In this document: one piece after another, positions 2,518-54,078 of the stretch
How positions within the stretch are numbered: position 1 is the first letter of the stretch
How the letters are laid out: every line of letters begins with the position of its first letter
NCBI GenBank assembly: GCA_022478985.1
Contig: JAKSZP010000161.1
Location: 1 to 64,000, forward strand
Reading direction: 5' to 3'
DNA from: Massospora cicadina
Taxonomy: Eukaryota > Entomophthoromycota > Entomophthoromycetes > Entomophthorales > Entomophthoraceae
DNA length: 64,000 bases
Notes under the pieces: generated by a model
What the model saw: only the letters and a program-made list of their open reading frames with translations
Databases searched by the model: none
Told to the model about the DNA's origin: nothing
Position numbers and translations under genes: made by a program

Positions 2518-3659
2518 GGTGCTGGATCATTGCCTTTGGGCTAGTGTCAACAATGGTTGACACATTTGTACCATCTGTTTTCCATAGACCATACCAAAAA
2601 AGCTTGCCCTTATACTGCTGACACCATCTTCACCTTGGTGGTGGCACCAGCCACTTCTGCACTGAATGTTTTGCTGCCCTTTTCACCCCAGCCCACCCTA
2701 TTGACAGGCCAGTGCAAAGCTTCCACCCAACTCACACCTCCCACTTCACTCAACCACCTGCATTGATTTCAGCTAATCAGGATCAGGCTTGGACTACCAT
2801 TTCCACCCGAGCGCCTTCTGTTTTGCTCCCCCACACCTAAATTTCTATTGCTGTCTCACCAAACTTAACCAAAATATATGGGAATTATTGGATGAGGTTA
2901 ATGAATCAGGTGAAATCATCCTATCCTCAACCAAAGTCATTGCCTTTGATCAATTTTGGAACTCTGATTTGATACAATTCCTAACCCCAAGTGGTATATT
3001 CCTAAGACAAATGCCAAACTATTACTCAGTGACCATCTGCTCGCCATGATGACAGCCACCTCCCCCCAAAATTATCCCCTTTGTAAAGCCTACCATCAAG
3101 CAATCTCCATACTAGTAGGATATCTCCCTAAGCCCACATTCACCCTGATTTTCCCTGTGCCATCCAATCTGAAATCACAAAGTTGTACAGTGCCCTGAAT
3201 ACTGTTGTTAAGAGAATTTTTGCATGATCAGTATATAATGATATAAGTATTTCCTCTGCAAATGACACCCAGATATCTTATGTGCCCTATGTATGCATGG
3301 ATACTTAGCATCACCTCACTAATTAATTCAAGGCCTTCAGCATGGCCCAGCTTCCCTCAATTGATCCTCTCTTTGAGTATCTTGTGCCTCATACTGCAGA
3401 TACCCCTATGCCTTTGCTGTCTGCCTTAGTCAGAGCCAAGCATGGAATTGGTTTAGGTACCAACCTGCCTCCCAGTCCCCCCTCCCCCTCCACTATGATA
3501 TGTTAGCAGTTAGCCACTTTCCCACCTAGTTGGTTTTTATCATTTTATTTTGAAATACTCATGTAGGCAGTTCAGTTCAGTAGTTAGAGTTTTTTATTAT
3601 TTTGCTCTCTGAGCACTTGGCATATCTATCCCCAGGTCATCTTACCTCAAAGTAAATCT
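2518..3659 (+). mobile_element. zinc-knuckle retroposon, copy 1 (5'-truncated)
   Basis: This 1.14 kb insertion matches the 3' part of the two longer copies at 44320-46236 (+) and 52180-54066 (-). Homology starts just before the zinc knuckle and runs through the 3' UTR to the shared end (CAGGTCATCTTACCTCAAA plus GTAAAT). It is flanked by a 16-bp imperfect target duplication. Truncation at the 5' end with an intact 3' end and a long target duplication is the usual product of target-primed reverse transcription by LINE-type enzymes. No poly(A) tail is visible. Boundaries are set by the duplications and are accurate to a few bases. Confidence 0.75.
2530..3545 (+). pseudogene. zinc-knuckle retroposon protein, C-terminal part
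   Basis: The remnant encodes, with several frame changes, the same blocks as the other copies. There is a CCHC zinc knuckle at 2567-2607 (C-x2-C-F-x-I-D-H-T-K-K-A-C, one frameshift inside). A linker contains NQNIWELLDE (about 2871-2900). The block SDHLLAMMTATSPQ lies near 3030-3070. The C-terminal block PHTADTPMPLLSAL lies near 3388-3430, before a serine/proline-rich end with PPSWF. Zinc knuckles of this type bind nucleic acid in retroelement Gag and ORF1 proteins. The repeated conservation of blocks between diverged copies indicates a real protein family, although this copy is dead. Confidence 0.65.
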
Positions 3660-10172: not shown

Positions 10173-10174
10173 TT

Positions 10175-10184: not shown

Positions 10185-10301
10185 CATTTACTTTCCTGTC
10201 ATTGTGGTGGCAAGCAAAAGAGGTGCCAAAAGAAGTTGTGTTTCCAATGTGGTATAACCATACTGCAACACTCTTGATGGTGATATTCTCCACCATTTTT
10301 T

Positions 10302-11780: not shown

Positions 11781-13020
11781 GAGGCATTGGAGGATTATAT
11801 CCATAAGATGCTGGATATGGGTTTGATTGTGCCTTCCAAGTCGCCGGTGGTTTCGCCAGTCCTGTTGGTTCCCAAGTCAGGGGGAGTTACGTCCTTGTGT
11901 TGATTTCTGACGCCTTAATGAAGTGACAGAACCTGACCCCTATCCAATGCCACTCATGGAGAACATTCTGTCCATGATCTCCGGGTGTGGGGTGTTCACC
12001 AAATTGGATTTGGTGGACGCTTTCAATCAAATTCCTGTTCGCCCTGAGCACCAGCGGTATACGGCATTCAAATGTCATCTGGGAAACTTTGAGTACAGGG
12101 TTATGCCATTTGGGCTACGCAATGCCCCTGCAGTTTTCCAGCGCATGATTGATCATGTATTGGGGGACTTAGTGGGTAGGTGTTGTGTTGCTTATATGGA
12201 TGACATCCTGGTGTTTTCCAGATCGGCACAGGACCATGTGAGGGATGTGAGAAGTGTGTTGGAGGTGGTTAGGAACGCGGGCTTGAAGTTGAAGCCGTCC
12301 AAGTGCGAGTTCAATAAGGAATTGGTGTCCTTCCTAGGGAACGTGGTCCTCCAAGGAGGGATAGCGATCTGTCCTGATAAGTTGCGGGCGGTGCGGGAAT
12401 GGAAAGCTCCTGGGAATAGGACTGAAGTGTGAAGCTTTTTGGGGGTGGTAAATTTCGTGCGAAGGTTTTCTAGGGATCTGGCCCAATGGGCTGTGCCATT
12501 GACAAGACTGATGGGAGACATGCCGTTCGTTTGGGGGGAGGCTGAGGAGAGGGCATTTCAGCAAGTGAAGACGAGTCTGCTGACAGCCCCAGTTCTGGCA
12601 CACCCTGACCCAAAACAAACCATTCGTGGTAGAGACTGACGCGTCAAATTTTGCACTTGGAGCCATGTTGTTGCAGGAGGGTAAGGATGGGGTTGAACAT
12701 CCTGTCTGTTACTTCAGTTGGAATATGGCACCGGCTGAAACCAACTATCCAGTTTACAATAAGGAACTTTTGGCAATAGTTGCAGCTTTATGGGAGTGGC
12801 AACACCACCTATTGTATGCCAGGCACCCGGTTGTCATCTGAACGGACCATCGAGCCTTAGAATACTATAAGTCCCCACGCCTGATGAACCAGAGGCAGGC
12901 CCGGTGGCACTTAGAGTTGGTTCAATATGACCTGCGGATTGAATACAAGCTGGGAAAACAAAATATCTTGCCAGATTTATTGAGCCATAATTCTGGACTG
13001 GTGTTTTCCGATGAGGAGTT
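11781..13020 (+). pseudogene. A reverse transcriptase and RNase H
   Basis: The RT fingers begin at KMLDMGLIVPSKSP (about 11800). The palm follows with FTKLDLVDAFNQIPV, the FGLRNAPAVFQR block, and the catalytic YMDD at 12193-12204, which is intact. The connection domain (FVRRFSRDLA) leads to RNase H with ETDASNFALGAMLL (first Asp), NKELLAIVAAL (Glu) and TDHRALEYYKSP (Asp). Damage: a frameshift and TGA near 11885-11910, a TGA at 12430-12432, a frameshift near 12620, and a TGA at about 12838-12840. Three TGAs sit where CGA or TGG would be expected, consistent with C to T or G to A decay. Confidence 0.9.
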
Positions 13021-14513: not shown

Positions 14514-15345
14514 CGGTTGAGGTCTATCCTCAGCATCACATTGCCCTGATCTTTGGTAAGACAGGGCAGGCTGTGTCTGTATGTATGGAGGAGGAGGGGG
14601 CGTTGGTTCTGGCAAGGACGCCTAAGGGGCCAGAGCTTGGAGTAGGCCAAGGAGCAAGATGGGCGTCCAAGTCGGAACAAAACGGAAAACGAGTAAAATG
14701 GGTAGTTTCAAGATTTGATTTGGATTCGAATTGAGAATGGAATGAAACGGGTGCTTGGGAGTTTCGCGGTTCAATTGGGATTCAAAATGGAACTGGCGCG
14801 GAACCGTTGAGGATCAGAACTGGCATGGAACCATTGAGCAAAGATTCCGCGATCCTGCTGTAAAATTTACACCAAACATCATTCAAGTTGGCAATGGCAC
14901 CATAAGATTATATTTTATTTTATTTTATTTTAGCTTTTAGTATGTGTATATAGGGAAGGAACTGGGAGCTGGAGGCTCCTCAGTTCTGTTTTCTATCAAC
15001 TTGGCTAAATATTAAATAAAAGAACCTAAAGTTCATATATTTATAATTTAGGTTTATTTTAAAGATATTGCTCAACTGCAGCCATGTTTGGCTTAAATCA
15101 ACAAGAATTGGACTTTGAGAGTGAGCTTGGGAGGGCTATTGCCTCCCTCTATACCTTGTCTTGGAGTCAAGGCATGTTGCTGGGGTTAAGTATACTTGCA
15201 ACTGTCTTCCAGGGGTGCTTGTCCAATCTTGTGGCGCGCGTACCGAGGAGAGTAGTATCAGGAGTCCTGTCAGCCCTATGGTCTTTAATATGGATCCTGT
15301 TGCTCAACTCATTCGTGGCTCATTGGAAGGAGCCAGTGCGTTACA
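14509..15345 (+). repeat. A 3' LTR
   Basis: 837 bp, partner of 9341-10172. It has one additional 5-bp TTTTA-type unit in the T-rich tract near 14920. Confidence 0.92.
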
Positions 15346-20007: not shown

Positions 20008-21144
20008 TGAAGGATTTTTTCCACATTCTCAGCCATCTAGATTACCAAAGGTCACTAAGGGATGATTACATTATAGCGAGTGAATTGGATATCAGTTGGC
20101 CCCAATTTCAGGCTAACATTGTTTGGTGGATTTTAGATAATTTGCCTGGTTTGGATCTGTTGGGAATCAATCCAGTTGAATGCTTAAGATTTCATCAGGC
20201 AGATTTGCCAATGAAATGGGGGCTTCTGATAGTTGATTGATGATCAACTATCAGGTGTACCAACTGGGATTAATTGAGTTTCATCACTAACCAATTGGAA
20301 ATTTAAGGAGTAAGTTGTGAGGCGAATGATGCTGCCTGCAACTCGCAAATTAATCAGTTGGTTTGTGACCTTCTATAATGGGTAACTAGTCCCATTGCCA
20401 AAGCAGGTCTTTTTTTTTTACTAGATGCCAAAGCAGGTCTCTGGACAAATATGGTTGGTTCACTGGGATCAAGTAGAAAACATTAGGGACACGTTTTCTG
20501 ACTCTTTCCATTATAGGTCTAAAGGATGTCCAATGATTGAATCCTAATCAGGATGGATAAGACCATTGCTGATGAGACAATGAAGAGTACTTCAATGGCA
20601 ATGGCTGCTGTTTCATCACTGAGGTGCCAACTGAGGGTTGGGCGCTGAATTCTTTCTATAAATTTCCTTGAGAATTAACTTATTTAAAAAAATTAAATCT
20701 TAAATCTTTTAATTAGCAGAATTCATTATTAGTTCTATTCATCTTCAAGGAAATTATTGCTGTGTGCTTTAATCGGAGACTCTTTAATAAATAAAAAGTA
20801 AGGATCGAGGATCCAGAGAAGAGAAGCTGAGCTGAGATTGGAATTGCTGTCAACTTTGTGTTGCCAGAGGATAGGCCATAAACTATGATCTGAGCGTGTA
20901 TCAAGTTAGGCGGATAAGGGAATAAATCCTTACTGAGGACATCTTTAGTATTTTGAGGAGGAATACTGGTTAAGAGTTGGACCTAACACTAGTGATCTAT
21001 TTAGCTACAGATAATAGTCTTCATACTATTATCAACTATATATATCATCAGAAAACACAAGAATTACACACAACCAAACCAGTGCAGTTATCAATTTGTA
21101 GTTAATATCTGTGAATGAGCAGTAAAGCCCCTAGAATTTTACTA
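20008..21144 (+). repeat. C 5' LTR
   Basis: The LTR starts TGAAGGATTTTTTCCACATT and ends near CCTAGAATTTTACTA. It is homologous over its length to 28392-29497. A local duplication of AAAGCAGGTCT near 20400-20440 makes it longer than its partner. Confidence 0.85.
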
Positions 21145-21146
21145 AT

Positions 21147-21164
21147 TGATGCTCACTACAGGGG
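21147..21164 (+). promoter_or_regulatory. C primer-binding site
   Basis: TGATGCTCACTACAGGGG follows the LTR by 2 bp. It matches the sites of E and J (TGGTGYTCACTRCAGGGG) apart from a G to A change. It would pair with the 3' end of a tRNA ending ...GAGCACCA; the tRNA is not identified. Confidence 0.7.
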
Positions 21165-21221
21165 TTGTATTTATATAGGATACTAATGCAAGATTTTGTA
21201 CAAGGATGAGTTAAGAAAACT

Positions 21222-22460
21222 ATGGCAGAGTTGGCAACTGCCAACAAGAGCAAATTAAATTACGTGGATCATTGAAAAATTGCTGCATTGGAGGAAAGAG
21301 TTAACAAGATCAAGGAAGAAGTCAATAATGTTGCTAGTTTTGGCAATGAGTTACTAGGAAAAGTAACGTCATTAAAGAAAAAGTAAGGAGATTTAGTTTA
21401 AAGCGTATTATTATTTTAAACAGAGCAAGAAACGGATCACATTTGATTATGGACATTCAGCACAGATATAGAGTAGTTGATTAAGCAAGTAAATATAGTT
21501 AAAGACTCACAAATGTGAATGTGAGCCTTATGCGTCAACTGATGCCAAAGAGAGGACCCCAAGAACTTCAGTTAGAAAGATGACTATTCTACAAAATATG
21601 CCACATGCATTCACAGCCATTTTGGAGATGACTCCCAAAATTACTCCTCAAGTTAGTCAAATAGCAGAACCAAGAGTGGCGGATAGAGAAACTTTAGAGG
21701 AATTTAAAGCTAAGCCAAAGTTACCTACTTTCTGTATGGACAACACCCCTGCATTTTTGCACCTATTTGACATGAACATTTTGGTCATGGCAATCATCAA
21801 AAGGCTTTAATGGTGATGAATTGCTTAGATACCAATTATCAGAACCTATTTTTACCCCATCTAGAGGGGGACAGATGGTCATACTCAGAGCCAAAGGTGG
21901 CCATTATAAAAGAATTTGAAAGTCCCACATGCATGTCAAAGTGCAATCAAGAATTCATGGAAATTCAATTTTAGAAGGATGACACTTTACCAAGTTTTGC
22001 CAATCATTTTTACCAAGAATAACAGGTTTTGATTGGAACAAAAGTTGGATGATTTTGACGCATGGATTGTGCTGCAAGCAGCCCTTCAGCCCTATCACAA
22101 TTTGCAGTAAATAAAGTCTTTAATGTTTATAATGGAGATTGCCATCTTGCAGATGGTAGATCATATGAAAATATTAGGAGCTACTTTCAATACTCCATAT
22201 AGAAGTTTCAAACTGAGCCTAGTATGAAATTTGAATCCTACGAAGGGGACTGAGGGCATTTAGGAATCCTTTTAATAAAACTGTGCTTGGAAATTAGCCC
22301 AAAGATTCAAGTGGATCAATAAGAAAGAAACTTTTTGTTACCAGTGCAGAGGAAAAGGACACTTTGCTGTGCATTGCAAGAAGTCTAAGGAACAGATCAA
22401 TGTGGTCCAATTGAAAGATTCTAAACCTGCATAGGAGGCAGAAAAAAGGCCCACAACCTA
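21222..22460 (+). pseudogene. C gag with coiled coil and zinc knuckle
   Basis: The reading begins at an ATG at 21222 (MAELATANKSKL), followed after a stop by a coiled-coil segment (ALEERVNKIKEEVNNV). A short open frame at 21580-21810 includes KPKLPTFCMDNTPAFLHLFD, which resembles the start of gypsy capsid domains. Capsid is badly decayed to 22300. The CCHC zinc knuckle is intact at 22336-22377 (C-YQ-C-RGKG-H-FAVH-C) followed by basic KKSK. Gag would form the particle and the knuckle would bind the RNA. There is no collagen-like part here, unlike E and F. Confidence 0.75.
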
Positions 22461-22859
22461 TATGGGAACATTCTAGAGCTTCAGAAAAACCCATTCCCCC
22501 AAATATTATGCATGAAGAAATTGACATTAGTGATCTGTTTGTCAATGATGACGTTCAGGATCAAGTATATCAAGAGGCAAATTTAGATGTGAATGCAGTA
22601 ACCAGATCCAGAGATAAGGAGATTGACCCTAAAATAACTATTGAAGTTGCTCAGCAATATGCACAACAGCTGGTGGACAAGATTTGAGCCTTGGAGAATC
22701 TGGAAGTTTTTGACCAAAGTCAAATTAGATGAGGCAAACCTGTATATACCCTTTAGCACGATCAAGGTATCATCTCATGATCTATCAGCAAAAATAATTC
22801 AAACCTTGATTCAGAAAATAATACCGCTATACACTCAATAAAATTGATTTTAAAATACT

Positions 22860-23900
22860 CCAATTGTACATATATAGATGTACTGGTTAATTTTATACAG
22901 GTGCAGGTGTAGTTGACAGTGGAGCACCCATCAACATTGTCTTGACCAAGCTGGTGAAGAAGGTGAGGATTTAGCCTGATTTAGAACACAAGAAAGAATA
23001 TGGGACAGCTGGGCCAAATATCACCATCTCCTGTGGAGCGTTTAGCGCTCTACCACTTCGATTTGGATCCTTAGTGGTATCCGCCCCAGAAATAGATTTG
23101 GCCAACTAAAATTATGATATTCTGATTGGGACGGAGTCTCTACGAAAAAACAGAGTTTAAAGTAAATTTGAGGATAATAATTTGACCATATTGGGTCAGA
23201 CGTTACCATTGGTTCATCAGAAGGATGGGGAAGCTCCAAAGAATTGGAGAAATAACTTCATCAATCTTATCTACAATGACGACATTGTCCTAAATTGATA
23301 CCAATTAGCTGTCTGTAAGCGACGAGAAATGCTGACAGAAATCCTAGTAATTTGGGGAATTTGTTGTGGATTAAGAGTTCAAGAACCATACCGCTGGGAT
23401 CACAGATAATAGTTGACACAACGTTGACATTGGAGATACCTGAGCTGCTGTATGGAGAGGTCAGAAGCCCCTGGAAGAAGTCTAGAGTAGAGCCTTGGGT
23501 GGCTCCTGATATAATTATGCTGGGCCATGGAGAAATTAGAGTTCTTCTAGAAAAAGTGATTGAAAAACCAATGAAGATTGAGAAGAATCAGATCGTCACA
23601 TTTGTTCATCTAATCCTGACAACTGAATTGAGAAAATTCCACGATTTTGGGACCCTTGATGAAATGAAATTACTGGAAGGGGTGAACAAAAGTATCAATT
23701 TATTGGTCAATCAAGAGCAACTTGCTGATTTGTTGGAAAGACGGCAGGAGGAGGTGCTTGAGCTATTTGACAATTATCAGGAAGTATTTCCCCAGGATAA
23801 CCACAATTTGGGATGTGTGAGAAATGTGACCCACAAAGTAGACACTGGAGAAAATTTGCTGATAAGAATGATACCAATTTAACAGTTGAAAGCAGCTGAA
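22860..23900 (+). pseudogene. C protease and linker to RT
   Basis: The protease catalytic motif is GVVDSGAPINIVL with its Asp codon at 22915-22917; the FGSLVV and NYDILIGTESL blocks follow to 23150. The best open frame of C (23352-23882, 176 codons) covers the protease-RT linker: IPLGSQIIVDTTLTL, PWVAPDIIMLGHGEIRVLL, and ELFDNYQEVFPQDNHNLG, the segment that leads into RT in gypsy elements. It ends at a TAA where the RT leader continues in frame (QLKAAEEVLEEEI). Confidence 0.75.
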
Positions 23901-25180
23901 GAGGTTTTGGAGGAAGAAATCAGTAAACTAGTGAAGCATGGGCTTCTAATTTCAACATCAAGTCCCCAGGCGAGCCCTATCCTTATCATGAAGAAGAAGG
24001 ACAGTTTAATTGGGTGGTGATTTATTTTCAGAAATATGTATAAGATTATGAAGAAGGATTTGTATCTGCTACTATGAAATGGTGATGCGTCAGATCAATT
24101 GAGTGAAATGAAGTGTTTCCTCTCAATGGATCTAACATTGAGGTATCATAAAATCAATTTGCCAATAGAAGACCAGGAGAAATGCATGATTATCACCGCG
24201 CAGGATCTTTATCAACTAATGAGGATGTCCCAGGGTCTGTGCAATGCGCCTGCAACGTTCTAGAAATCCATGGGCGCCATATTGAATGAACTGAATTTGT
24301 CATGCGTCCTGGTATACTTGGACAATATAAATATGTCCAGTAGGACATTCACTGACCATTTACACCACTTGGAGGAAGTTTTCAAGCAACTATCCACAAC
24401 TAACCTGAAGATCAAACCAAGGAAGTGCTACTTCTTTAAGAAAGAGTTGAAGTTTCTGGGAATAGTAATTAACTCTAGTGGACTGCAGCTGAAAGCACAG
24501 AAAATAAAGCATAAAGCGAATAGTTGTACTGAAGAGTGTCTGAGATATCCAAGAGTTCCTCTGAAAAAATCAGATACTATCAAATATTCATTTAGGATTT
24601 TGCAAGAATTGCTAAGCCCCTCTTCCATTTACTGAAGGATCTGAAAAGAAGGGTTCGTTTGGAGTGAAGAAGCCCAGAGTTCTTTTGATGAATTATGCCA
24701 GTATTTGATAGATTCTTCAATTTTGAAATATCCAAATTTTGATTAAGAATTGATAATACAGACCAATGCTTCATTAACGGTGATCAGTGCCATCATAAGC
24801 TAAGTGGATAAACTTGGGGAAAAACATCCAGTAGCATATGTGAGCTGGACACTCTCAGCAGAATAAATTACAATGTGACTGAGAATGAATGCCTTGCGGT
24901 CATTTACGCCTCTAAACAGTTTCAGGTGTATATTCATAGATGCAATCTAAAGTAGTGATGGACCACTCCACAATGCGTTGGCTGCACAATTTAAGAGAAC
25001 TGGAAGTATGACTGGCCCAAAGGCATTAAAGGTACAATCTTATGATTATAAGATAGTCCACTAAGCTGGAGCTTATCAACAGAATGCAGATGAATTATCA
25101 AAGTTATCAATGGTCCAAGTGGTATACCAGCAGGTGGATGAGCTATTACTGATAATGATCAAAGTAGAAATTGGGAAAAA
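23900..25180 (+). pseudogene. C reverse transcriptase and RNase H
   Basis: RT blocks are KHGLLISTSSPQASPILIMKK (23935-24000), FLSMDLTLRYHKINL, MRMSQGLCNAPATF, and LVYLDNINMSS with the active site YLDN at 24315-24326. The second catalytic Asp is Asn (GAC-AAT instead of GAC-GAT, a CpG to CpA change). KFLGIVINSSGLQL follows. RNase H begins near 24750 (QTNASL, first Asp lost) and runs to about 25090 (QQNADELSKLS). Stops and frameshifts occur throughout. Confidence 0.8.
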
Positions 25181-26340
25181 GCCCTGAGAAATCTAGGGTG
25201 CACTTCAAAAAATGATGGAAAACACCAAGACCATGGGTGGACAAGTTTTCAAGACAATTAATGGGATTAAATTACCATTCCCAAAGCCGTTTAGAGCGGC
25301 TATTGTTCAAACTGCTCATAAGGTTGTTGGGCATGGAGTCCTGTAGAAGATGCTCAATCATATCCACCAGTACTATTACTGGGAGTCCATCAACTATGAT
25401 GTAGAAGGTTATCTGGCTTGTTGTGTGGAGTGTCAGTTGCATAATCCCCACAAGAACACAACTGGACAGTGACTGGTCCTCCCTGAATTTGCTTGGCATA
25501 CAGTGTCCATTGATGTGATAGGACCATTAAACATGAATACCAGGAAAGTCAAACATCATAGTTACAATTGACCATCTAATGAGATGGGTTGAGATGAAGG
25601 TTCTGGTAAAAACAGATGCTACAAGCACTGCTTGGTTTATCTTAGATCAAGTAGTATATCAACATGGATGCCCGCAGGTCTTGTTGAGTGATTATAGAAC
25701 AAATTTCACATCTCATGTGATCCCACAATTGAATTAAATAATGGTCATCAGAGGAGTCATGTCTGTACCTTACCATCTGGAGATGAACGGACTGGTAGAA
25801 CGGGTCAATGGAATGCTGGCTGCAACGCTGAGGAAGATGGTTGCATAAGAACTTCTGCATGAGGAACATACTTTAGTTTGGTGACATTTGCATACAAGAT
25901 AAGTCATCATATGGCAATGGGAAAAATAACGTTTGAGTTGCTATATGGAAGGAAGGCCATATTGCCACCAATTTTTACTTTTGGTGGTGGAACCAACATT
26001 GGGATGAGTGCCAAGCAGTATCTCATCAATTGTCAAATATTCTAATCACAATGAAGTTGTAAGCATTCAATATGTCCTTAAAGAAAAAGATTGAGGAAAA
26101 ATGACGTATGATAAGAATTGACCAGCCTTATCAGAATACTGAATAGGCAAAAGTGTTGTTTTTTGCGATACACATGGTATCAGGAGAAGAAACAAATCAG
26201 ATGCATTGTGGTTGGGTCCACTCAAGATTATTGCCAAGATGGCGACAGATAGCTATTCCATCAAGAACTTCTTGGATGGAAGGATAATGAATTGAGTCCA
26301 TGCTAAGTACTTAAAGCAGTGGATTGATAAAAAATAATGA
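25180..26340 (+). pseudogene. C integrase
   Basis: The HHCC zinc region has AHKVVGHGVL (about 25313-25345) and CCVECQLHNPHKN (about 25425-25460). The core has VSIDVIGPL (first Asp, about 25512), a second-Asp block with SDYRTNFTS (about 25690), and LVERVNGMLAATLRKM with the catalytic Glu (about 25795). Downstream is AYKISHHMAMGKITFELLYG. The C-terminal part after 26160 keeps LGPLKIIAKMATDSYSIK-like residues, a GPF-type module. No chromodomain follows. Confidence 0.8.
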
Positions 26341-26841
26341 AAAAAGTGCTTTCAGAGGACCGCTGAACCATTAAGATAGTTGTCCTGATGATTTGATTAA
26401 GTCCCAAAAAATGACCACTGAACCAAATTATATGGTTAAATCTTAAAAATTTGACCTCAAAACCATGAAAAACTAGTTAGTTAAGTATACCTAGGAACCA
26501 ATATGGGGGAATAAATAAAAAAGATGGATCGCTGAATTGAAAAAGGTCAAGTACCATGAAAAAAAGAAGAAAAGAAAAAATATCGATAAAAATATAGCAA
26601 AAAATAAAAAATTCACTAAAAAAAGATATATTTTTAGATTTTTCATTAGTTATCTTTAACTAATGGATGATTCTGCCTATGTCACCTTTTGGGGGAGGGA
26701 GGATGGATCGCAGTAGGAATAAACAAACTGTCAAAGTCTATGTGGGATTAGATGCTAGCAAGGGCTAGATTACTTGAAGCCAAGTTCACTGAGCAGAGGC
26801 GGATTCTTGTGAGAATGCAACTAGGGGAAGAAAAATGGAAT

Positions 26842-44319: not shown

Positions 44320-44408
44320 AATAATAAATCTCTTTCCAATTGGCTAACTTTCTGAACAAATCTTATGAAAAAAGTAAAATTTAAATCGCCCACCATAGTT
44401 TCACTCTG

Positions 44409-46140
44409 ATGTCCTTGGATCCCCCTCTAGCTGCTCCAATGTGAGGCAGCGGTGAAACTCCCCCCGCCATTTTTTGTCTGGTAGAAAAACGCGCTTGAAC
44501 TGGCTCTCCCAGTCATACCAAACCCTGGGACAATTTGTTCCTCCCAAGGATCTCGACGCCCACCTTGCTTGTATCCAAGCGGTATCTCATTGCCCCCTGG
44601 TGCTCCCCCAGAGCAACATGCACTTCAGCCTTAGGGTCAATTATGGGAAACTGTTCCCTTACTATGACCAAGCCATTATTGAAATAGCTCAGGCGGTGAT
44701 GAATCCCGCTGGTTTTATTGATTTCCGCTCCTATAAGGTTTTGTTCAATATTGGATTCAACTGTGAGGCTGACGCCGCCACTGTAGCAACTGTGCCCCTG
44801 GTTTTCGAGGGAACCCCTCTTCCCACAATTCAGACCCAGCTCCCAGCAGATATCACTTTGGTGGTTCAGTTCTCTGGTTTGACCACCCACCTCCCCCCTG
44901 CGGTGCTCCATCAGGAGCTGATGGACAGTTTGGCAGTCTATGGCTCCAACTCCATTTACAGTTTGCAGTCCTAAATGGGGCCACACGCCTCACTGGGCCT
45001 CGGGCATATGCCATAATCAGCCCTGAATTTAGTAAAATTGACTTGTAAATTCCCCCTCACGCTGTTAATCCTTCTTCCCCTGACCATCCGTTCTGGGCCC
45101 ACGTCAAAGGCAGGCAGATGATCTGTCCATACTGTTTCAAGTTGGACCACTCAAAACGCAAGTACCCTTCCTTAGCTGCTTCCAATGGCTCTAATTTTTT
45201 GTCTTCCAGCTTCCAATCTGCTGCCCACCCCACGCCAGTTTTGGTATGGGGTAAAATCTTACCTTCCCCTCCCCCAAAGCCTGTTGCTGCAGATGCACCT
45301 GCAGCCACCAATCAGCCTCCACTAAAGTGCCACACATGATTACTCCAATCAAGCGCCAGCTTGGACCCCAGTTCACTCCCATGCTTCCTCCAATGAATCA
45401 ACTAAACCTCAAACATACGCCAATTTTCCAATTTAATTCAACCAGAACCTATTGGAGTTATTTTTGTTATTGATAAATTAGATAATCTCATTGAAAAACC
45501 ATCTCTGCAAATTGAGCGGATTTGTTAATGCAGAATGGGTTGCCAAATACTCCATCGTTTATATTCCCACATCTAAATGCTGAACCATTTTTCAGTGACC
45601 ACCAGCTTGCAGTCAAAGCAGCTGCCACGCCAGATTGTCATCCCCTCCACAAAGCTGTCGCCAAATCTATGGCGATGCTTACAGGAGGTATTCTCCCTCC
45701 TTTTATCCCCTCAACCCTCACCCCACAAAGTAAGATTACTTTATATCAATTACACAAATATGTCAATGATGCTATCCAGAACATGGTAAATGTAGCACGG
45801 AATCCTAAAGCTAAGATTACCCAAACTAATATTGCCACATTTATTAAACTACCAGACACCCAAATTAAAACTGAAAAAGCTTTAGCTTAATATATCAGCG
45901 CCATTTTTAGCTGACAATTTCCTTGAGATACCAATCATTAATGATATTGAGCCACATTCCGCTGATGCCCCCAACGCCCTTGCTCTCCACCTTGACATGT
46001 ACCTTACTCTGGTATGAAAAAGCTTATGCCAAAGATGAGCCCACTGATCCCCCCTTCCCTTCCGCCATGGTTGGATAAGCAGTTTTCCGCTGTCCCACCT
46101 GGTTGGTTTTTTTCGTTTAGTGTGTATCATTTATTTTCTC
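44409..46140 (+). pseudogene. zinc-knuckle retroposon protein (copy 2)
   Basis: It starts at ATG 44409 (MSLDPPLAAPM, then a stop), matched by MSLAPPPATPVW in copy 3. The N-terminus is proline-rich. The next segment, best seen at 44630-44970, reads LRVNYGKLFPYYDQAIIEI, GFIDFRSYKVLFNIGF, PADITLVVQFSGLTTHLPP, HQELMDSLAVYG. Its alternation of strands and helices resembles an RRM-like fold (inference). The zinc knuckle at 45124-45165 reads C-PY-C-FKLD-H-SKRK-Y, with the last Cys lost. Then an Ala/Pro-rich linker, SDHQLAVKAAATPDCHPLHKAV (about 45594-45660), YVNDAIQNMVNVARN, and PHSADAPNALALHL near 45953-45995. Likely an RNA-binding, Gag/ORF1-like protein. Confidence 0.7.
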
Positions 46141-46221
46141 ATTTTGGGTGTTTTTTAATTGACCAGTTACGTTAGTTTTTAGTTTTTTTTAGTATCAGTA
46201 ATGTCCATCCCCTGGTCAGCT

Positions 46222-46235
46222 TACTTCAAATAAAT
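46222..46235 (+). terminator. polyadenylation-type 3' end of copy 2
   Basis: TACTTCAAATAAAT at the end of the insert contains AATAAA. The same position in copy 3 also has AATAAA and in copy 1 AGTAAA. Confidence 0.5.
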
Positions 46236-46236
46236 C

Positions 46237-46900
46237 AAAAATTGTGCATCTCTAGGGTTTCAGTTTAAGGGTGCTGATCACAGTTGATCAAATACACGGT
46301 GTAAGTGGTTTTATGGGAGCTAGAAGTTTGTTAAACGTCGTTAGTATCATCTAGATACATAGTACACAAGACATTTTCAGGTAAGCTAGATTGCCATCCA
46401 TGGCTCTCTGGAATGTAGCAAGGGCGTTGAACAGCCCCTGCGGCATTTGAGTTGGGTTTAACAGGCTCTTTTTAGCGACGAGGGTGCACTTCTCTCAGTC
46501 CTGAATAAGGTATATTTTCCAGTATCTGCTAGCTAGATCCATGGAGGAGAATATTTTGAGCCAGCTAGCATCCAAAGGGAATTGTCAATCTTAGCTAAAG
46601 GATAGCTGTCCTTTCAGATGGTTAATTAAATTTTTTATAATCATTGCCACGAGATGGGTCCCACCTTTCTTATCACCAACAGCAGAGGCGAAGCCCAAGG
46701 GCATTGGAAAGGTTTTAATATACTAATCTCCAAAGGTTGTTCTAATTTGACAGTTGCTTGGGCTTCTTCCACTTTAGATTTTTGATAAGGCTTAGTCCAT
46801 ATCAGTAAAGCATCTCCTGTATATATCCAATGGGTTACTTCAGTCATTTTCCAAAAATGTATGGCCCATAAGAAAAGATATCAGAATACTCATCAAAGAG
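46237..46900 (-). pseudogene. F reverse transcriptase, N-terminal part
   Basis: 46641-46847 encodes the RT leader (WTKPYQKSKVEEAQATVKL, SILKPFQCPWASPLLLV), matching E. The palm follows with ALATFQRAMDG (about 46390-46425). The active site YLDD is at 46346-46357, intact. The copy 2 insert lies about 100 bp after this motif. Confidence 0.8.
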
Positions 46901-48000
46901 TTGCTCAGCGGCCTTTTATTAATCTTGGTGAGATATAAGCTAATATTATGTCTGATGGTGGCTATAGTAGGAGTATCCTCTAGTTTAAAATCTTGTGAGA
47001 ATATTAAAATTTATGTACTTTGGGTATTTAATCAACAGGTAACAGGCGAACATAAGTTATAGGGTCCTTTTTCCCTGGGATGCTAATGGCCAAAGTCAGG
47101 TTACTGATATAATAGAAATAAACCCATAATATTAAGTATCTAGAATTCCTGGTCAGTGAAATATCTCTTTGATAAATGAATTATCTACCCCACAATCTTC
47201 TAGTATATGGCCAGATGATTATGTACTTGGATACAGGCATATAATATATCTTGCACCTGAGCTGGGACTACAACTTGATATGGATTATACAATGAAATTC
47301 CTTCCTGGGTTACAGCAGATTAAGGAAGGTATTTTTACTTGAGGTCCAACTATATAATACTCGATTTGGTATGATGTTGGGACATCTTAAATAAGGAAGA
47401 TTCTTTTATGGGACTTTTCCTCTTTAATTACAAGCGTTTGGAAGATAAGTGATGCCTGATGCGTGATTATAGATAAATAGGATTCAGACAGGTTACGATC
47501 CCAGGGTACTCACGCAGAAATTTCGTCCTGAATTATAAGTTATAACTCTGGTTCTCAAGAACTACAACTGAGGCCGTTAGAGGAAGCTTTCCAATAAATA
47601 GGGTAAGGCCAAAAATTCACAAAGAGACCTAACTAAATGGGAGCCCACCGTTCTTTACTTGATACTATATTGGAGGTCAGTTGATTCTTTAATTTGACTT
47701 ACTAGTTTAAAAGATATAACATTAACTAGGGGATCTGGTGTCAAAAATGGCTTGAACCTTAAGTTTGCAAACTCAAACTTCCACCTTAGTAACTGAGTCC
47801 CCAAACTGAGGTTATATGGTAAAGAATTAATTGAGGGGATACAGAGGGATCAAAAATAATCTGAATTATTGTAATTATTTTCATTAGACACATAAACTGT
47901 TTTATTAGAAGAAGAGGCAACAGAAATGTTGGCCCAAGAAGTAGATGGTTGAGGTGTAGGGTGGTTGTCAACATTAAAAACCTCTCCCTTCATGTTACAT
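46900..48000 (-). pseudogene. F protease region, decayed
   Basis: By position between RT and the gag zinc knuckle this should be protease, and sequence similarity to E at 35640-36400 is faint. I could not place the catalytic DTG. 47720-47760 has a possible PFLTPDPLVNVISFKL run that precedes it. Confidence 0.4.
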
Positions 48001-50074
48001 GGATTTCCCCTCAATAGCAATTCTCTTGTAACATTCTTCAGCGTTATTCCAGAAACTATTATAGCAAATGCATTGAGTATTTTTCTTATTAGGTCTTTTT
48101 TCTCAAGAACGTTGTCTTGAGGTGTTGATTAGGAGAAAAGATGGGCTTATAGCTTTTGAAGTAAACTAGTGGGGATTTGGCAAGAACCTTTTTAATGTCC
48201 AGGATGCTAGAGATTATTTCTTTATAGCGCAAATATGTAAATTCAAGTCAGGGAAAGATGCCAAAGTGGAAATGACAGCGGTAATGGCATCATATAGAGT
48301 AATAAAGTCACAGGAAACCAGGGCTTGTGACTTATAGTAAAATTGATTGACAAACTCAGTTGTTGATTCCACATGCTTGATGCAAATTCCCATGAAGGCC
48401 TGCTTTTGCTAGAAAAGGGTCTGATTACTTGTAAATTCTTTTATCAGGGCGTTCTTAACTAATTTCCAAGGTTGACTATTCTTCAGGTGAGGGATCACTA
48501 TTTATTGGGCAATTTTAACCCAAGCAGGTGGTTAGATGCTTAAATTTTTTGTCAATTAGTAGCTTCTTCTATGGCACTTTCATAGATTTTTAGGAATGAA
48601 GTGATTTTTTCTTCACCAGGAATGTACTTTTCCTTAAGCGTAGGCTTACAATAATTAGAAACTGGTGTAGATAAAACGTTAATCCTAGTTGGTGCAAAAG
48701 GAGCTGAAAATAAGGACTTGTTATTATTATAATCAGAGGGTTGCATACGATCAAGATGAGCTATAAAATCATTGACGTCATTCTGTATATCTGTATACTT
48801 TGTCATTACTGTGGTAACGGTGGCTTTTGGGTAAGCTGCTCTTTGGACCTTGAAATTCTAGCTTCTGGGCTTCCATGGAGGTCTTAATGGAACTTTCTCT
48901 GCCTTAATGGCTTTTACTTGGCTGGTAAGTTTATTGAGCCAGTCATTGATGTGGGCTAATTGAACGCTATTTAAGTGAGAGAAACTAATGACATTTATGA
49001 GCCCATCTGGTAAGGATTCCATGGCATAGTTGGGGTCAAGAGATAGACCTCTCAAGGTCTACACCACAGCCATGAGAAGTATCTTCACCTTGGGACTTAA
49101 TTTGGTTGACCTGATTTTAAGGTTTATTCAGTTGTAATTGAAAAGCATAATCCTTAGGTTCTGCTACAGTAGGTCCAGGGGGCCCTGTTAATCCCAGGGT
49201 CCCTATAGATCCACAATCACCTTTAGGCCAAAGGATCCCAGAGGGTTCCCATAGTCCAGGAGGGTCTTGATAGCCAGGGGGCCCTTCAGGGCTAAAGAGC
49301 CTTGTTCAACAGTACAGGCTTTCAGTAAAGCTTCCTTTAATCATGTGAAATATTGTCCCACTATTTCTTAAAGCTGAAGTTATGATCCAAGAGTGTACCA
49401 ACAGTCTCCTGACTTTAAGATAAGCTTCAGATGCGGCCACATCAACTTGAGTTGTGAGTTAATTCTGTAAAAATGCAAAGTCTCCTTTATCCAACAAAGT
49501 CATCTGACTTCATACTTTGTTAATTCAGTGTCAGCTTTTAAAAATAGCGTTTTGTTTTTCTTGTATGAAAGAGGAGGAAGATTTATAAATCCACAGAAGC
49601 TGAGTGAAGCGATCAAATCAGGTCTAATACTTGCAGTTCTTCTTGGTGAATTACTGAAAACTTGCATAATATATTAGATGGAATGATGGACGAAGTTGTG
49701 AAGGTACTTATCTGTTCTAGTTCCTACTTCAGTGACAGGCAAACTAAATACAAGTAAGGTTCTCTAATATTATAGGAAACGGTTGATGCTATGACCTGGC
49801 TGGAATGCCCTTCGGGCACAAAAAACTACTGATCATTTGTTGTATGATCATGCTAAGGTTGAAGATTCTTAACTGATGTTTGCTTTGGTCTACAAGAGGC
49901 ACTTCACCTCTGTACTCAGCCCTGAGTTCAAGAGTAGCTGGAACATGAGTGCCTACTTCAAAGTGATCATTGCTGATCCAACGATTAATGTTTAAACCCC
50001 ATTAACATGGAAGGTTTCTTGGCTAGGATTTTCATCTTCTTCTATGTCCTCACTCTTTAACAGCAACTTAGAAG
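48000..50074 (-). pseudogene. F gag with collagen-like part
   Basis: It has the same plan as E's Gag. Right to left: a decayed N-terminal region (49450-50074), collagen-like repeats (49158-49300), then a helical segment NSVQLAHINDWLNKLTSQV (48858-49055). A coiled coil follows and the capsid start KPTLKEKYIPGEEKITSFL (48552-48640), closely matching E's KPVFKYKYSLGEGSIISFL. Capsid runs to about 48200. A degenerate zinc knuckle lies at about 48020-48075, where one Cys and the His are disturbed. Many stops. Confidence 0.75.
49158..49300 (-). repeat. collagen-like Gly-X-Y coding repeat in F
   Basis: About 13 triplets in one frame, Gly in ten (GPPGYQD, EPSG, KGDCGSIG, GLTGPPGPT); the exceptions are Asp, Glu and Trp, each one base from a Gly codon. 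A preceding EQGSLALKG-type run in the neighbouring frame suggests the repeat once began earlier, before a frameshift. It sits at the same place in Gag as in E. Confidence 0.8.
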
Positions 50075-50075
50075 A

Positions 50076-50093
50076 ACCTGGCATGGAGCACCA
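50076..50093 (-). promoter_or_regulatory. F primer-binding site
   Basis: TGGTGCTCCATGCCAGGT on the minus strand, 1 bp after the 5' LTR. It shares the first eight bases with the sites of C, E and J but differs after that, so the primer may be another tRNA. Confidence 0.65.
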
Positions 50094-50094
50094 G

Positions 50095-50621
50095 TTTCCT
50101 ATAGCACTGTAGATAGCAAGTCCAGATGAAGGGACAGCTTTTCTGTTTTTCGCAGAGTCAAATGTGTTTATTTTTAATAAAGTACAACTGGGGGCCAGAA
50201 CCACTGGGATGACCAAGGCTTATTGAATAACCTCAATAAAGTTCTAAAAACAGGAAGATTACAAAAAGTTATATAAGCAGAAATGACAGACCATTTATTT
50301 GAATCTTGATATTTATAGGGTAATAGGGTTTAGTGCACATGGGATGTTTTGTAGTGGACTGATGATTGGGATCTTCTTGTACTTTAGGAAAAGGTGCTTG
50401 GCAAGACGTCTTCCTTTGTTACATGATAGTCTTCTGAAGTTGATAGAGAGGTTTATTTGTAGCTTTGGCTATGGCATATGGATATACTCTTCTTCCATTG
50501 GATGAAAAATGGTCAGTTGCCTTTGTTAACATGTAGGTAGGAATCAAATTATCTGTAGTTAGATGAGATATGGGTTTGAAATATGTAAAAAATATCTTCA
50601 TCCACAGTGCTAATTTTGATA
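50095..50621 (-). repeat. F 5' LTR
   Basis: About 527 bp, partner of 41859-42383. Confidence 0.8.
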
Positions 50622-52167
50622 AGAAAAACCCATTCAGACAGTCAAATACTAAAATGATTGGCAGTATTTCTTATAAGCCAATGGTTGCTTCAACTTTGGC
50701 CTCCTTGAAGTTTTCCACTAATACCATCTCAGGGATGAAAGCTTTTTTATGTTTTAAAAGATCCAAAGGATTCTAGTTCAGGAAACTTTACGGGATGAAG
50801 GCCTTGGTTACTGCCCCCACTGCATTAGGAATTTGCGAATCTATGGTAAAAGGATTTTCAGCCTTAAGGGGGAAAGCTGAGAAGCATGAAAACATTATGC
50901 TACTTCCAATGAGGAAGGTATTGTCATATGTAAATCCATATTTCCAAGGTCTCTTTTCACCATAAGGGACCCAAACGTTTGCTTGCAAATTTGTTAAAGA
51001 GATTTTCATTTTATATTGATCATATATAGAATGACGATGAGCATTCCATGAACTCATGGGCTGGAAGCTGTTTGCATTCCACAAACTTCTGGTAGTCATT
51101 ATTGGCCTTTAATAACGTTTGTAAATGTAGTTCTGAGTATCTCAGATTTTCAGCAGGCATGACTCATCTGCAGGCTCTTCTGAGAAAAAGAGAAGGCCAT
51201 TTTGAAAGGGGAATCATACTAAGTAGTTTGTATGTGGAGAATATAGTAAAAGAGTAAGTTGCATTATTGCATGCAAACTGTGTCAAAGGGAGATCAGCGC
51301 CCAAGGATCCTAAGTTGAAAAGGAATAGCAGAAAAAATACTGCTCCTTTATCTGTTTGAAACTTTTTTTGTCTACCCATCATACTGAAAATGATAAGTAT
51401 AGAACAGCATGTCTCTAACTTATTTATGGATAATATAGCTTTCCAGAATTGGGATGTGAATTAAGGACCCTGATCACACACCACTTCCAATGGTATGCCA
51501 AATATAGCAAAGAAGTGGTTAATGAACAGGCAGGCAATCTCTTATGAGGAAATTTCCAAATTACAGTTAATAATAATGAATACTTGATAGCCAATACACC
51601 AAAATTTTTATTGCGTCTAACCCATTAGAAGGAGTAAGTTACACAATGAAGTCAACAGATATGGAAGTTCAAGGAACTTCTGCCTATTCTAGTGGGTTTA
51701 GCAGACTTTACTTCCCTGATCTGTCTGATTTTCCACAGGCACAAATAACATGAAACGCTATCCATGCTGACATATCTTTAAAGATATAAGGCCAATTTAG
51801 ATACCTTTAACGTGAGACTAAATTTTTTTTTCTCAGATGACCTACTAATAAGGATTGGTGTTCTCTAATAAGTTTGTAACAAATCAGGGGAGTACCCAAA
51901 CTCTTTTTCTAGAACTATTTCATTCTTTATATTATATGTGGGGTTTTTTTGTTAAGCGATATTGCTAGAAGATCAGTTAATTTTAGTACTTATAAGTAAT
52001 TTATTTGAGCAGCCACCATATGTGAAACTAATGATACATCCAGATCCCAGTATGCAACTTAGATTATGATAGAGGCAATATCTAGGATTTAAGAGGGTGG
52101 TATGGCCACATTAAATCCTTTAACTCCTCATTGGTTGGTATTAACGATGGGTTTTACTAAACATATC
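50622..52167 (-). pseudogene. I integrase and chromodomain start
   Basis: The core is readable as a first-Asp SVDFIV-like segment near 51630-51650, PLEVVCDQGP with the second Asp (about 51465-51500), and LPLTQFACNNATYSFT (51240-51300), the usual block after the Glu. A GPF-type module lies near 50930-51000 (KRLGPLW), and the chromodomain start VLVENFKEAKVEATIG lies near 50690-50750. The zinc region extends toward 52000. The element is heavily decayed. Confidence 0.6.
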
Positions 52168-52179
52168 AGGAATAACATT
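52168..52179 (+). repeat. target duplication, left (copy 3)
   Basis: AGGAATAACATT, identical to 54067-54078. Confidence 0.88.
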
Positions 52180-54066
52180 CAATTTATTTGAGGTACGCTG
52201 ACCAGGGGACAGACAGTACCGAATCACAACACTCAAAATGACAAAACAAAACTACTAACCAGGTGGGAAGCAGAAACCGCTAACCCACCAAAGCAGAGGG
52301 TGAAAGGTTGGGGGTTGGTTTTCAAAAAGACCCGCCTCATTCAAGGGATGTTGGTTATAGTACTGGATCAGAGAAGAGAGCCAGGGAGTTGGGGCATCCG
52401 CATAGTGGGGGTGGAGGTCAGTGTAGTAGGAGTTTTCCTCTTCTGCATCAAGATAATGACGGGAAAGTGTTTCAAATAAAAGCTGCAAGGAGAACTTTAG
52501 CTTCTTTGCGGGCTTCAGGAAGTTGGGTGAAAAGGGAGATAGTATGGTGGGTGATTTTGGCTGAGGGGTTGAATGAAGCAAGCGTTGTGACATTCATAAC
52601 AGCAACTTCAGCATCATTGAATAGTTTTTAGATGTCACTGCAGGGAGATTCAGGGAAGTCGGGGGGAAGAAGAGGGTGGGCAGGCCATGCTGGAGCTGAG
52701 CCGCTGACTGGGCCACCGCGGTGCATAGTTTTGGGCACTGAGGAGAGGCCGCCGCAGCTAAGGCGAGCTGGTGGTCACTTTGGAAGGGGGATGTATTGGG
52801 CAGAGGAGCAAAATGGCGAGTGGTAGGGGTTTCATCAAAGCTGGGAAGGAAAAATTCTTCCTGACCATAATCGCCTTGGCAGAGAGGTTGACCTGTATGC
52901 TTACTAATGAGGATAGTATCTGATTTGTCAGTCTCAGCCAATAGATCCCATGTATTTTGGTTCACTGGAATAGTGGCGTTCAAATTCAGGTGGGTGGGAT
53001 TGGGCAAATGGGCAGCTGCTTGGGTGCCAATGGAGGTCCAAGCATTGCTCTGATTGGCTGGGTTAGATTTAGGTGGGAGAGTGAGGCTGGAGGTTTTGGG
53101 GGGGGCTGATTTTCATGTGGACCCATTGAACAAGACTGGAGGGTGGGAGGGGGCAGCAAAGCGCCCCATACTGAACCTCCAGAGGGGGGCTCAGAAGCCG
53201 CAGCAGCGGGCTTGGTCTGAGGGCACACTTTTTTTGCATGGTCAAGGCCAAAGCAGAGGGAACAAATCTGCCTACCATTATCGACCCAAGCCCAAAAAAA
53301 TGATCAGGCGCTGAAGCCACACTAGCGCGGGGTGGGATTTGTTGGGCTATGGTAGGGTGGTGTGGTATGATGGTGGCTGTTGCCTGAGGAGCAGCAAGGC
53401 GCTCCACACCAGATGGAATGGCAAAGATGAGGTTGGGCTGAGTGCCATAAGCCATGAGCCCCGCGACCAACTGGTCATACAAAACCTGGGGTGGAAGGTG
53501 GGAGGGGAGATTTGCAAAGGATACCACCAGCGTGGTGTCTGAAGGGAGGCGAGTACAGGTTGTGGGAATGGGGTTTTTTTTATAAATTAGAGGAGTTTGT
53601 GCTGCCGCTTCAGCATCCTCCTCAGATTGGAACCCAACGTCAAAGTAGCCCTTAAAAGGGCGGAAGTCTATAAAGCCAGCTGGTGCAAAGCCGCAGTGGC
53701 TAGCTCAATAATTGCTTTATTGGCATATGGGAACAAACGCCCATAGTCCACTCTGAGGCAATAGCGAATGGCGGAGCGAGGGAGGGCGAGAGGATGGGGG
53801 CGAGAAGGGTGGACGCGCGCCAGGTGGAGCGCTAAGTCCCGTGGGGGACAAAATGGTTGGAAGCAGTGGGCGGGCTGTTTGAGCCCATCTGAACGCGCTT
53901 GCCCGCGGTGCAGAAAACGCTAGGTGGGGGTGCACTGCTGCCCCACACTGGGGTGGCAGGCGGCGGAGCCAAGGACATCAAAGAATAGATTTGGGCAGAT
54001 GAATGTGGATAAATAAAACTTTAGATTTAAAATCGCTCAAAAGTGACTTCAAGCGGTAAAAAATTA
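52180..54066 (-). mobile_element. zinc-knuckle retroposon, copy 3 (full length)
   Basis: 1887 bp between perfect 12-bp direct repeats AGGAATAACATT. It is collinear with copy 2, including an 88-bp leader before the ATG and the AATAAA-bearing 3' end. It is distinctly GC-richer than its surroundings, especially in the N-terminal part (53720-53980). It lies in element I between RNase H and integrase. The perfect duplication suggests it is the youngest of the three copies. No LTR, RT or long poly(A). Confidence 0.88.
52255..53978 (-). pseudogene. zinc-knuckle retroposon protein (copy 3)
   Basis: It starts at ATG 53978 (MSLAPPPATPVW). A Pro/Ser-rich N-terminus leads to LRVDYGRLFPYANKAIIEL (about 53700-53760). 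The RRM-like part has GFIDFRPFKGYFDVGFQSEE, SDTTLVVSFANLPSHLPPQV and YDQLVAGLMAYGTQPN. The zinc knuckle is complete at 53223-53264 (C-SL-C-FGLD-H-AKKV-C), preceded by FWAWVDNGRQ. The C-terminal half has NLNATIPVNQNTWDLLAE (52594-53007 frame), SDHQLALAAAASPQCPKLCTA, and PHYADAPTPWLSSLI (52255-52593 frame), ending PPG near the 3' UTR. Frames change three or four times. Function is inferred as nucleic-acid binding. Confidence 0.75.
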
Positions 54067-54078
54067 GGAATAACATTT
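54067..54078 (+). repeat. target duplication, right (copy 3)
   Basis: AGGAATAACATT, partner of 52168-52179. Confidence 0.88.

Follow-up and report, generated by a model that had tools for sequence, protein, structure and literature searches.

ORF1-only non-LTR retroposons of the fungus Massospora cicadina and their probable dependence on a LINE

ORF1-only elements are already known from mammals (HAL1) and from fly telomeres (HeT-A). HAL1 elements are described as non-autonomous derivatives of L1-type LINEs that encode ORF1p only and that arose from L1 on several separate occasions (PMC5753468). HeT-A of Drosophila is presented as a Gag-bearing non-LTR element without pol that serves telomeres and for which the Pol protein of TART has been proposed to act (PMC4467039). 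Within the L1 clade, stringent-type SINE/LINE pairs of plants and green algae are reported to have a common 3' end, with a variable stem and a conserved loop (PMC3747384). In a fungus, barley powdery mildew, work on a plant-infection peptide describes a peptide-encoding non-autonomous retrotransposon (PMC6022647).

Here, we analyse a family of M. cicadina found in a window (the whole 64-kb stretch of DNA that was analysed) of the 1.47-Gb genome assembly. It can be likened by description to the mildew element, reportedly named Eg-R1 / ROPIP1, in being a fungal, non-autonomous, coding retrotransposon. With HAL1 it has in common that it is non-autonomous, ORF1-only and LINE-related; unlike HAL1, its ORF1 is clearly diverged from the LINEs seen and of the RRM/CCHC type, and it ends in a 3' stem-loop without a poly(A) tail. 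It lies outside the mammalian HAL1 family proper, whose L1 ORF1p homology and poly(A) tail were not found. Like HeT-A, it carries a gag-type protein without a pol of its own, whereas the Massospora insertions seen are dispersed and flanked by target site duplications (TSDs). As in stringent SINE/LINE pairs, its 3' end and stem-loop are common to a LINE, but in Massospora the LINE is paired with a protein-coding element of 1.9 kb that bears signs of purifying selection, in place of a short SINE. With a probability of about 0.8, we regard the family as non-autonomous ORF1-only non-LTR retroposons of M. cicadina, which have an ORF1 protein of their own and would use the reverse transcriptase (RT) of a LINE in trans.

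Copies in the window and the genomic unit

Copy 3, a full-length element, occupies positions 52180..54065 on the minus strand. Its ends were fixed via the TSD AATGTTATTCCT, read in the sequence on the 5' side (54066..54077, minus strand) and on the 3' side (52168..52179, minus strand), and because this duplication is present on both sides, copy 3 is a true insertion. The 5' leader contains a hairpin (CGCTTGAAGTCACTTTTGAGCG; 54034..54056, minus strand, read in the sequence), while the 3' end contains a terminal stem-loop, GGTAC-TGTCTGTCCCCTGGTCAGC-GTACC, followed by TCAAATAAATTG (52192..52220, minus strand). The coding region between them (52280..53978, minus strand, its end taken from comparison with the ORF of the young copy L041) encodes, in order, a proline-rich N-terminus, an RRM-like part, the CCHC knuckle CSLCFGLDHAKKVC and a C-terminal half. 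Copy 2 (44320..46236, plus strand) is a diverged full-length element from another branch than copy 3; its broken coding region (44409..46078, plus strand) ends in ...PSAMVG and a stop, as in the L041 ORF, and its terminal stem-loop reads AGTAA-TGTCCATCCCCTGGTCAGC-TTACT (46197..46225, plus strand). Copy 1 (2518..3659, plus strand) is truncated at its 5' end, has a degenerate 3' stem-loop and was detected by blastn as blocks 2525-2610, 2736-2909, 3476-3545 and 3625-3657.

The initial annotation had described copy 1 as a truncated third copy and copies 2 and 3 as units of ~1.9 kb at these positions and strands, apart from an end of copy 3 at 54066 that the TSD moves to 54065, each with an ATG-TCC-TTG-G start after 88-89 nt and an AATAAA-bearing 3' end. 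All of this was recovered, with the ATG at 53978 in copy 3 and at 44409 in copy 2, and with both copies terminating in CAAATAAAT; the single long reading frame that had been attributed to them was not, as frameshifts and stops interrupt it in both. At the DNA level, copies 2 and 3 align by blastn in two short blocks only (85% over 41 nt and 76% over 51 nt), but when read as protein they correspond over much of their length. The 3' motif TCCCCTGGTCRGCKTAC occurs three times in the window versus 0.22 expected. Copies 2 and 3 belong to two diverged branches of one mobile element of ~1.89 kb.

A DNA search of the genome with copy 3 listed at least 42 matches including copy 3 itself; the other 41 display 91-93% identity, and most of the listed matches span nearly the whole length. 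The element consists of a short leader with a 5' hairpin (for which a 9-bp stem is predicted in copy L057), one ORF, a short 3' UTR, a terminal hairpin and an AATAAAT tail. Among the 61 copies examined, which were the best-scoring ones only, 53 are flanked by TSDs of 10-21 bp and 8 are not bounded at the threshold of >=10 bp. At this threshold, TSDs were found in 36 of 41 older-branch copies, with 1.1% in a mispaired-flank control; for the young copies, counted without this control, the figure is 17 of 20. The young copies have fixed ends and 94.9-99.1% identity in the pairs shown, and one copy (L039) is 5'-truncated and carries a 10-bp TSD. No poly(A) tail was found in the 41 older-branch copies. 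The TSD-bounded unit holds one ORF and is free of repeats of LTR length (at least 60 nt), in agreement with the earlier view that RT, endonuclease and LTR are lacking. A discrete 1.89-kb unit with TSDs, a fixed 3' end, a short non-poly(A) tail and occasional 5' truncation is, as far as sequence can tell, what target-primed reverse transcription (TPRT) leaves behind.

An ORF1-type protein and its relatives

The sole product of the element is a protein that combines an RRM-like part with a CCHC knuckle, and the HAL1-like layout that had been noticed at the outset is supported. CCHC knuckles are carried by the Gag of HeT-A. A low-confidence model (mean pLDDT 43.9) displays an RRM-type strand/helix order at residues 74-145, and the Foldseek hits shown are mostly RRM proteins, none of them at E 0.001 or below. 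The Pfam profile search returned zf-CCHC_4 alone, below threshold (E 0.12-0.26), with no domain above the cut-off; for the 568-aa protein, Pfam returned nothing and the PDB sequence search nothing useful. No match to L1 ORF1 was obtained by sequence in Pfam or PDB, with which a remote relation is still compatible. A protein profile search, in which the 8000 candidates sharing most words were scored, gave no relatives outside Massospora except P0008, and the protein searches listed only Massospora members of the family together with P0008.

A separate LINE in the same genome encodes a homologous ORF1 and an RT-bearing ORF2. For the ORF1 homology, BLASTP gave 36% over 72 aa (E 2e-12) and hhalign 96.8% (E 2.1e-10), in an alignment of 147 columns that extends to the CCHC knuckle; by these alignments, the single protein of the element, which comes without RT or endonuclease, is a remote homolog of the ORF1 of an L1-like LINE. 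The LINE ORF2 in L061 matched RVT_1 (E 2.5e-27), with LINE-1 ORF2p on top of its solved relatives (E 2e-18). Its putative endonuclease piece was assigned from residues by eye, Pfam giving no recognition of it. In the aligned parts, LINE ORF1 has 26-36% identity with the element protein or P0008, and protein identity between the two branches found in the window is 38-51%. The identity gap separating the element from LINE ORF1 is modest.

The ORF1 homology and the 3' end common with the LINE also fit deletion products of a LINE carrying the same ORF1, generated by recent internal or 3' deletions and devoid of a lineage of their own; with 74 of 101,404 candidates scored, a closer LINE may exist. 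We consider such an origin unlikely, given that the LINE ORF1 is less similar to the element protein than one element branch is to the other, that L041 and P0008 are 44% identical along nearly their whole length, and that no inspected copy (53 of 61 being TSD-bounded) runs on into an RT-bearing ORF2, the case that the initial annotation had set against its own proposal.

The shared 3' stem-loop and proposed movement in trans

The terminal 3' stem-loop of the element recurs at the end of LINE RNAs, with compensatory changes in the stem. At their 3' ends, the L062 LINE and the element are 94% identical across 32 nt (E 5e-8), and the motif is present in 6 of 7 further LINE 3' ends (L071 is without it). 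Pairing was observed in 85% of stem cells, and the covariation score reached 0.357 versus a shuffled mean of 0.121, none of 500 shuffles being as high. When the stem partners were slid by -2, the numbers of doubly changed pairs (3) and cells (4) equalled those of the true stem, but pairing fell to 40% of cells and the score was lower. Past the stem, the tails differ (TCAAATAAAT in the element, TCGGTTAAATAAA in the LINE), and a second LINE type is present in L018, so that the LINE serving the element is a candidate rather than a pinned-down partner.

The suggestion of a non-autonomous element is supported by a TSD-bounded, ORF1-only retroposon family with a LINE-type 3' end. In its proposed cycle, the element RNA would be translated and the RRM/CCHC protein would coat its own RNA in cis, as LINE ORF1p does; the LINE ORF2 protein would bind the shared 3' stem-loop, nick the target and then reverse transcribe the element RNA. 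We infer this movement in trans from sequence comparisons. More tentatively, the family may belong to a long-lived two-replicon system, in which a gag-only element, perhaps in more than one organism (P0008), has its own selected ORF1 protein, uses LINE ORF2 via the shared 3' stem-loop and makes up a sizeable share of the 1.5-Gb genome. If so, fungi would have a non-telomeric counterpart of HeT-A/TART, and ORF1p would have to act in cis even with RT supplied in trans. The fungal case is young and abundant, with a protein showing signs of selection and a 3' stem-loop matchable to LINEs, and offers a natural experiment on the question of why ORF1p is needed in cis by LINE-type elements when their RT can be borrowed. 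The family also accounts for a group of "hypothetical proteins" in the M. cicadina annotation and for part of the growth of its genome to 1.5 Gb.

Reading frame and selection

Only one of the 20 young copies (L041) is open to the expected stop, giving 568 aa; eight end at 462 aa with a nearly identical out-of-frame tail, two read past the stop and the remaining ones break elsewhere. The relative P0008 has an open frame of 587 aa. The broken frames of the young copies could stem from nanopore homopolymer error or from a real shared frameshift. Indels pile up in homopolymers, rising from 0.07% of cells at a run length of 1 to 4% at 8, with none at 7, a pattern that fits nanopore error or slippage without proving either.

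Between branches, codon-position identity is.63/.70/.33, with saturated third positions and conserved first and second positions. Within the young copies, N/S is 6/13 for variants in 3 or more copies versus 101/47 for singletons (p=0.004, uncorrected for several tests, with CpG-type sites excluded and related copies counted as independent). On this codon-level evidence, the ORF shows signs of purifying selection in the lineages that spread. In a separate comparison, singletons display no codon-position bias. An apparent depletion of shared variants in the ORF relative to the UTRs, obtained in a first codon-level test, was rejected because flanking bases at the edges had produced it; once the UTRs were trimmed, variants in 4 or more copies occur at 22/1048 ORF sites and 0/85 UTR sites (p=0.40).

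The element might alternatively be a bare SINE-like passenger, in which the 3' stem-loop alone matters and the ORF is a relic encoding a dispensable protein. The disrupted frames of the window copies and of the older-branch copies looked at, the 19 of 20 young copies that are not open to the expected stop and the unbiased singletons point that way, but the contrast between codon positions across branches, the lower N/S of shared variants and the open frames of L041 and P0008 make it quite unlikely. Repeated retroposition of a host gene mRNA, the other origin initially entertained, is hardly tenable: a single ORF, AATAAA near the 3' end, the absence of visible introns and the fragments annotated by NCBI as hypothetical genes would suit it, but it is unsupported because no poly(A) occurs in 41 copies, the 3' terminus, located directly at AATAAAT, has a stem-loop in common with LINEs and the protein has its homolog in LINE ORF1, to which are added the selection signal inside amplified lineages and protein searches that gave no source gene, so that neither the poly(A) tail nor the spliced source of a processed pseudogene was seen.

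For the ORF1-only retroposon, a two-ORF or programmed-frameshift design, considered from frameshifts shared in the older branch, was discarded, as L041 and P0008 each have one uninterrupted ORF and the indels lie mostly in homopolymers. In the NCBI annotation, fragments of the element are listed as hypothetical genes.

Window copies and reading frame

Copies 2 (44320-46236, + strand) and 3 (52180-54065, − strand) of the ORF1-only retroposon were each read along the strand that carries them, with comparisons between the two and against the 5'-truncated copy 1 (2518-3659, +). Direct reading bore out the start, leader length and 3' end that the initial annotation had given for copies 2 and 3, and no framing repeat of at least 60 nt surrounds the window copies, in line with the claimed absence of an LTR. 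The single long reading frame did not hold for these copies, whose frames are broken; one open version (L041) was found elsewhere in the genome. At the DNA level copies 2 and 3 are similar in short blocks only, and their encoded proteins match along much of their length. A 180-aa open frame with no Pfam match (1863-2405) lies directly upstream of copy 1.

The protein search returned 13 proteins, namely 12 M. cicadina "hypothetical proteins" and P0008, a relative whose 587-aa frame is open and whose contig, at 1,857 bp, is roughly as long as the entire element; with two protein searches combined, at least 23 NCBI "hypothetical proteins" of M. cicadina (L0F63_*) match the retroposon protein. Among the 20 copies of the young branch (L041-L060), only L041 has an ORF open to the expected stop (568 aa). 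Eight stop at 462 aa with a nearly identical out-of-frame tail, reflecting either a real shared frameshift or a systematic read error, while two overrun the expected stop through a late shift and the remainder break elsewhere. Across 40 copies of the older branch, to which copy 3 belongs, indels affect 0.07% of cells at single bases and 4% in 8-base runs, with none in 7-base runs. Since indels rise with homopolymer run length, many frameshifts in the M. cicadina assembly may be sequencing errors, and these would disrupt host gene models too.

Insertion marks and spread

Target-site duplications (TSDs) of at least 10 bp flank 36 of 41 older-branch copies (median common stretch, 14; mispaired-flank control, 1.1%) and 17 of 20 young copies. 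The 5' ends of full-length copies fall near one point, which reads (A)nACTTTC or ACTCTC and then TTTWACCGCTC with a hairpin. At the 3' side the terminus is fixed as an CAAATAAAT-like sequence plus C or TG, this terminal unit is at times tandemly repeated (L005, L049, L052), and element copies carry no poly(A) tail. The L039 copy is 5'-truncated with a 10-bp TSD. TSDs, a fixed 3' end without poly(A) and 5' truncation are marks of target-primed reverse transcription (TPRT) by a LINE-type enzyme independent of poly(A). Two loci hold pairs of elements, in tandem with one common target sequence (L040, C12436:1184-4657) or tail-to-tail 14 bp apart (L028, C14078:20699-24481), for which repeated insertion at one site and twin events are suggested as alternatives.

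Copy 3 as a DNA query gave at least 42 genome matches (best 40 of 7,678 first-look candidates scored) and P0008 as a protein query at least 84 (best 74 of 101,404 scored), these candidate totals not being copy counts. Loci L001-L040 hold 42 copies, 40 of them full-length; the first 20 loci of the P0008 search form the younger branch, with 94.9-99.1% identity in the pairs given. At least four more old copies lie in 128 kb of flank (at L009, L021 and L051, plus L034, read by eye), from which we would extrapolate, crudely and with a bias to repeat-rich places, to tens of thousands genome-wide.

The assembly used here, which contains the window, comprises 1.47 Gb in 16,968 contigs. The published one is described as 1.488 Gb (nanopore and Illumina), of which transposable elements make up 92%, with Ty3 accounting for 73% of the latter (PMC9584336), and LINE expansion is reported to have followed the Ty3 burst (PMC11105155). 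The window itself contains a Ty3-like LTR retrotransposon (9341-15345) whose direct repeats, at 9341-9640 and 14509-14808, are 97% identical and which matches protease, RT and integrase, and a degenerate Ty3-type element (21100-26400) with an RVT_1 fragment (24264-24632, E = 4.6e-11), the remainder of which, including a CCHC motif near 22340, was read by eye.

Signs of selection and predicted protein fold

Between copy 2 and the copy 3 branch, identity at codon positions 1, 2 and 3 is 0.63, 0.70 and 0.33 in the N-terminal part, 0.48, 0.66 and 0.35 around the knuckle, and 0.65, 0.67, 0.26 and 0.54, 0.67, 0.33 in two C-terminal parts, a pattern lost in shifted frames. In uncorrected tests on related copies, N/S among singleton (post-insertion) variants is 130/71 in the young branch and 497/190 in the older one, against 26/32 for young variants common to at least three copies (p = 0.009), 41/38 for at least two (p = 0.057), 105/62 for older variants common to at least four (p = 0.018) and 13/13 for fixed-like differences between branches (p = 0.03). 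Older-branch copies decay by CpG loss (14-19%, versus about 1.5-3.6% in other C/G contexts). Without CpG-type sites, young singletons stand at 101/47 versus 6/13 for at least three copies (p = 0.004) and 13/16 for at least two (p = 0.02), and older ones at 451/144 versus 32/19 (p = 0.045). Given the relatedness of the copies and the uncorrected tests, these ratios support, rather than prove, a role for the protein in those copies that went on to spread.

The Pfam profile search called for in the initial annotation yielded no family for the element protein, whose knuckle is spaced C-x2-C-x4-H-x4-C. The P0008 structure model has low overall confidence (mean pLDDT 43.9, pTM 0.26); its residues 71-150 (block means 56-80) follow a strand-helix-strand-strand-helix-strand order, that of an RRM. 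RRM proteins dominate the best 50 of 1171 Foldseek matches (E up to 10; top E 0.005), none of these 50 reaching E ≤ 0.001. In our reading, a second RRM-like stretch may follow the first.

Proposed partner LINE and common 3' stem-loop

The locus flanks contain LINEs. On contig C6797 (L061), an ORF1 that spans two frames (95-691 and 492-1373) and shares the element's layout precedes an ORF2 whose RT matches RVT_1 (E = 2.5e-27) and whose end resembles zf-RVT at a score below the cut-off (E = 0.0029); a second LINE, on C4619 (L063, L047, L062), is interrupted by a young element insertion with a 17-bp TSD. The closest solved protein to the LINE RT is LINE-1 ORF2p, and all 150 best of 79,676 candidates in a genome search with this RT are at ≥89% identity. 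The element protein matches LINE ORF1 by BLASTP (E = 2e-12 over 72 aa), as does P0008 that of L063 (E = 1e-5 over 104 aa), and hhalign of element versus LINE ORF1 gives 96.8% (E = 2.1e-10) for an alignment of 147 columns that runs through the knuckle, with profiles of seven versus two sequences. Judged by these alignments, the two proteins are homologous.

Element and LINE RNAs both end in a stem-loop, GGTAC-loop-GTACC in copy 3 and AGTAA-loop-TTACT in copy 2 on the element side, GGTAA-loop-TTACC in L062 and GGAAG-loop-CTTCC in L018 on the LINE side, and the loop TGTCYRTCCCMTGGTCAGC is identical across all four. In eight ends (three LINE, four element, one in L042 left without class), 85% of stem cells are paired, with double changes at three of five pairs; covariation is 0.357 versus 0.121 in shuffles, none of 500 being as high. 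Slid partners gave fewer paired cells and a lower score than the true stem, but at a slide of −2 the numbers of doubly changed pairs and of doubly changed cells equal those of the true stem. Among seven additional LINE 3' ends, six carry the motif and form three to five of its five pairs; L071 lacks it.

The data show insertion of the TPRT type, signs of selection on a coding unit, homology to LINE ORF1 and a common 3' stem-loop; beyond these, we propose that element RNA would be translated into its protein, which would coat its own RNA, and that LINE ORF2p would recognise the 3' stem-loop and reverse transcribe this RNA in trans. Stringent LINEs and their SINEs follow the same stem-loop logic, which has been described for the L1 clade in plants and algae as well (PMC3747384). 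HAL1 (PMC5753468) and HeT-A (PMC4467039) are described as ORF1-only elements; no description of a comparable fungal element was found in the open-licence literature searched, which is weak evidence of absence.

The 5' leader has word matches of only 10-22 nt with LINE stretches and flanks. The L018 end (L018:840-930) belongs to a second LINE type, whose tail consists of TTTAAAAA-like repeats.
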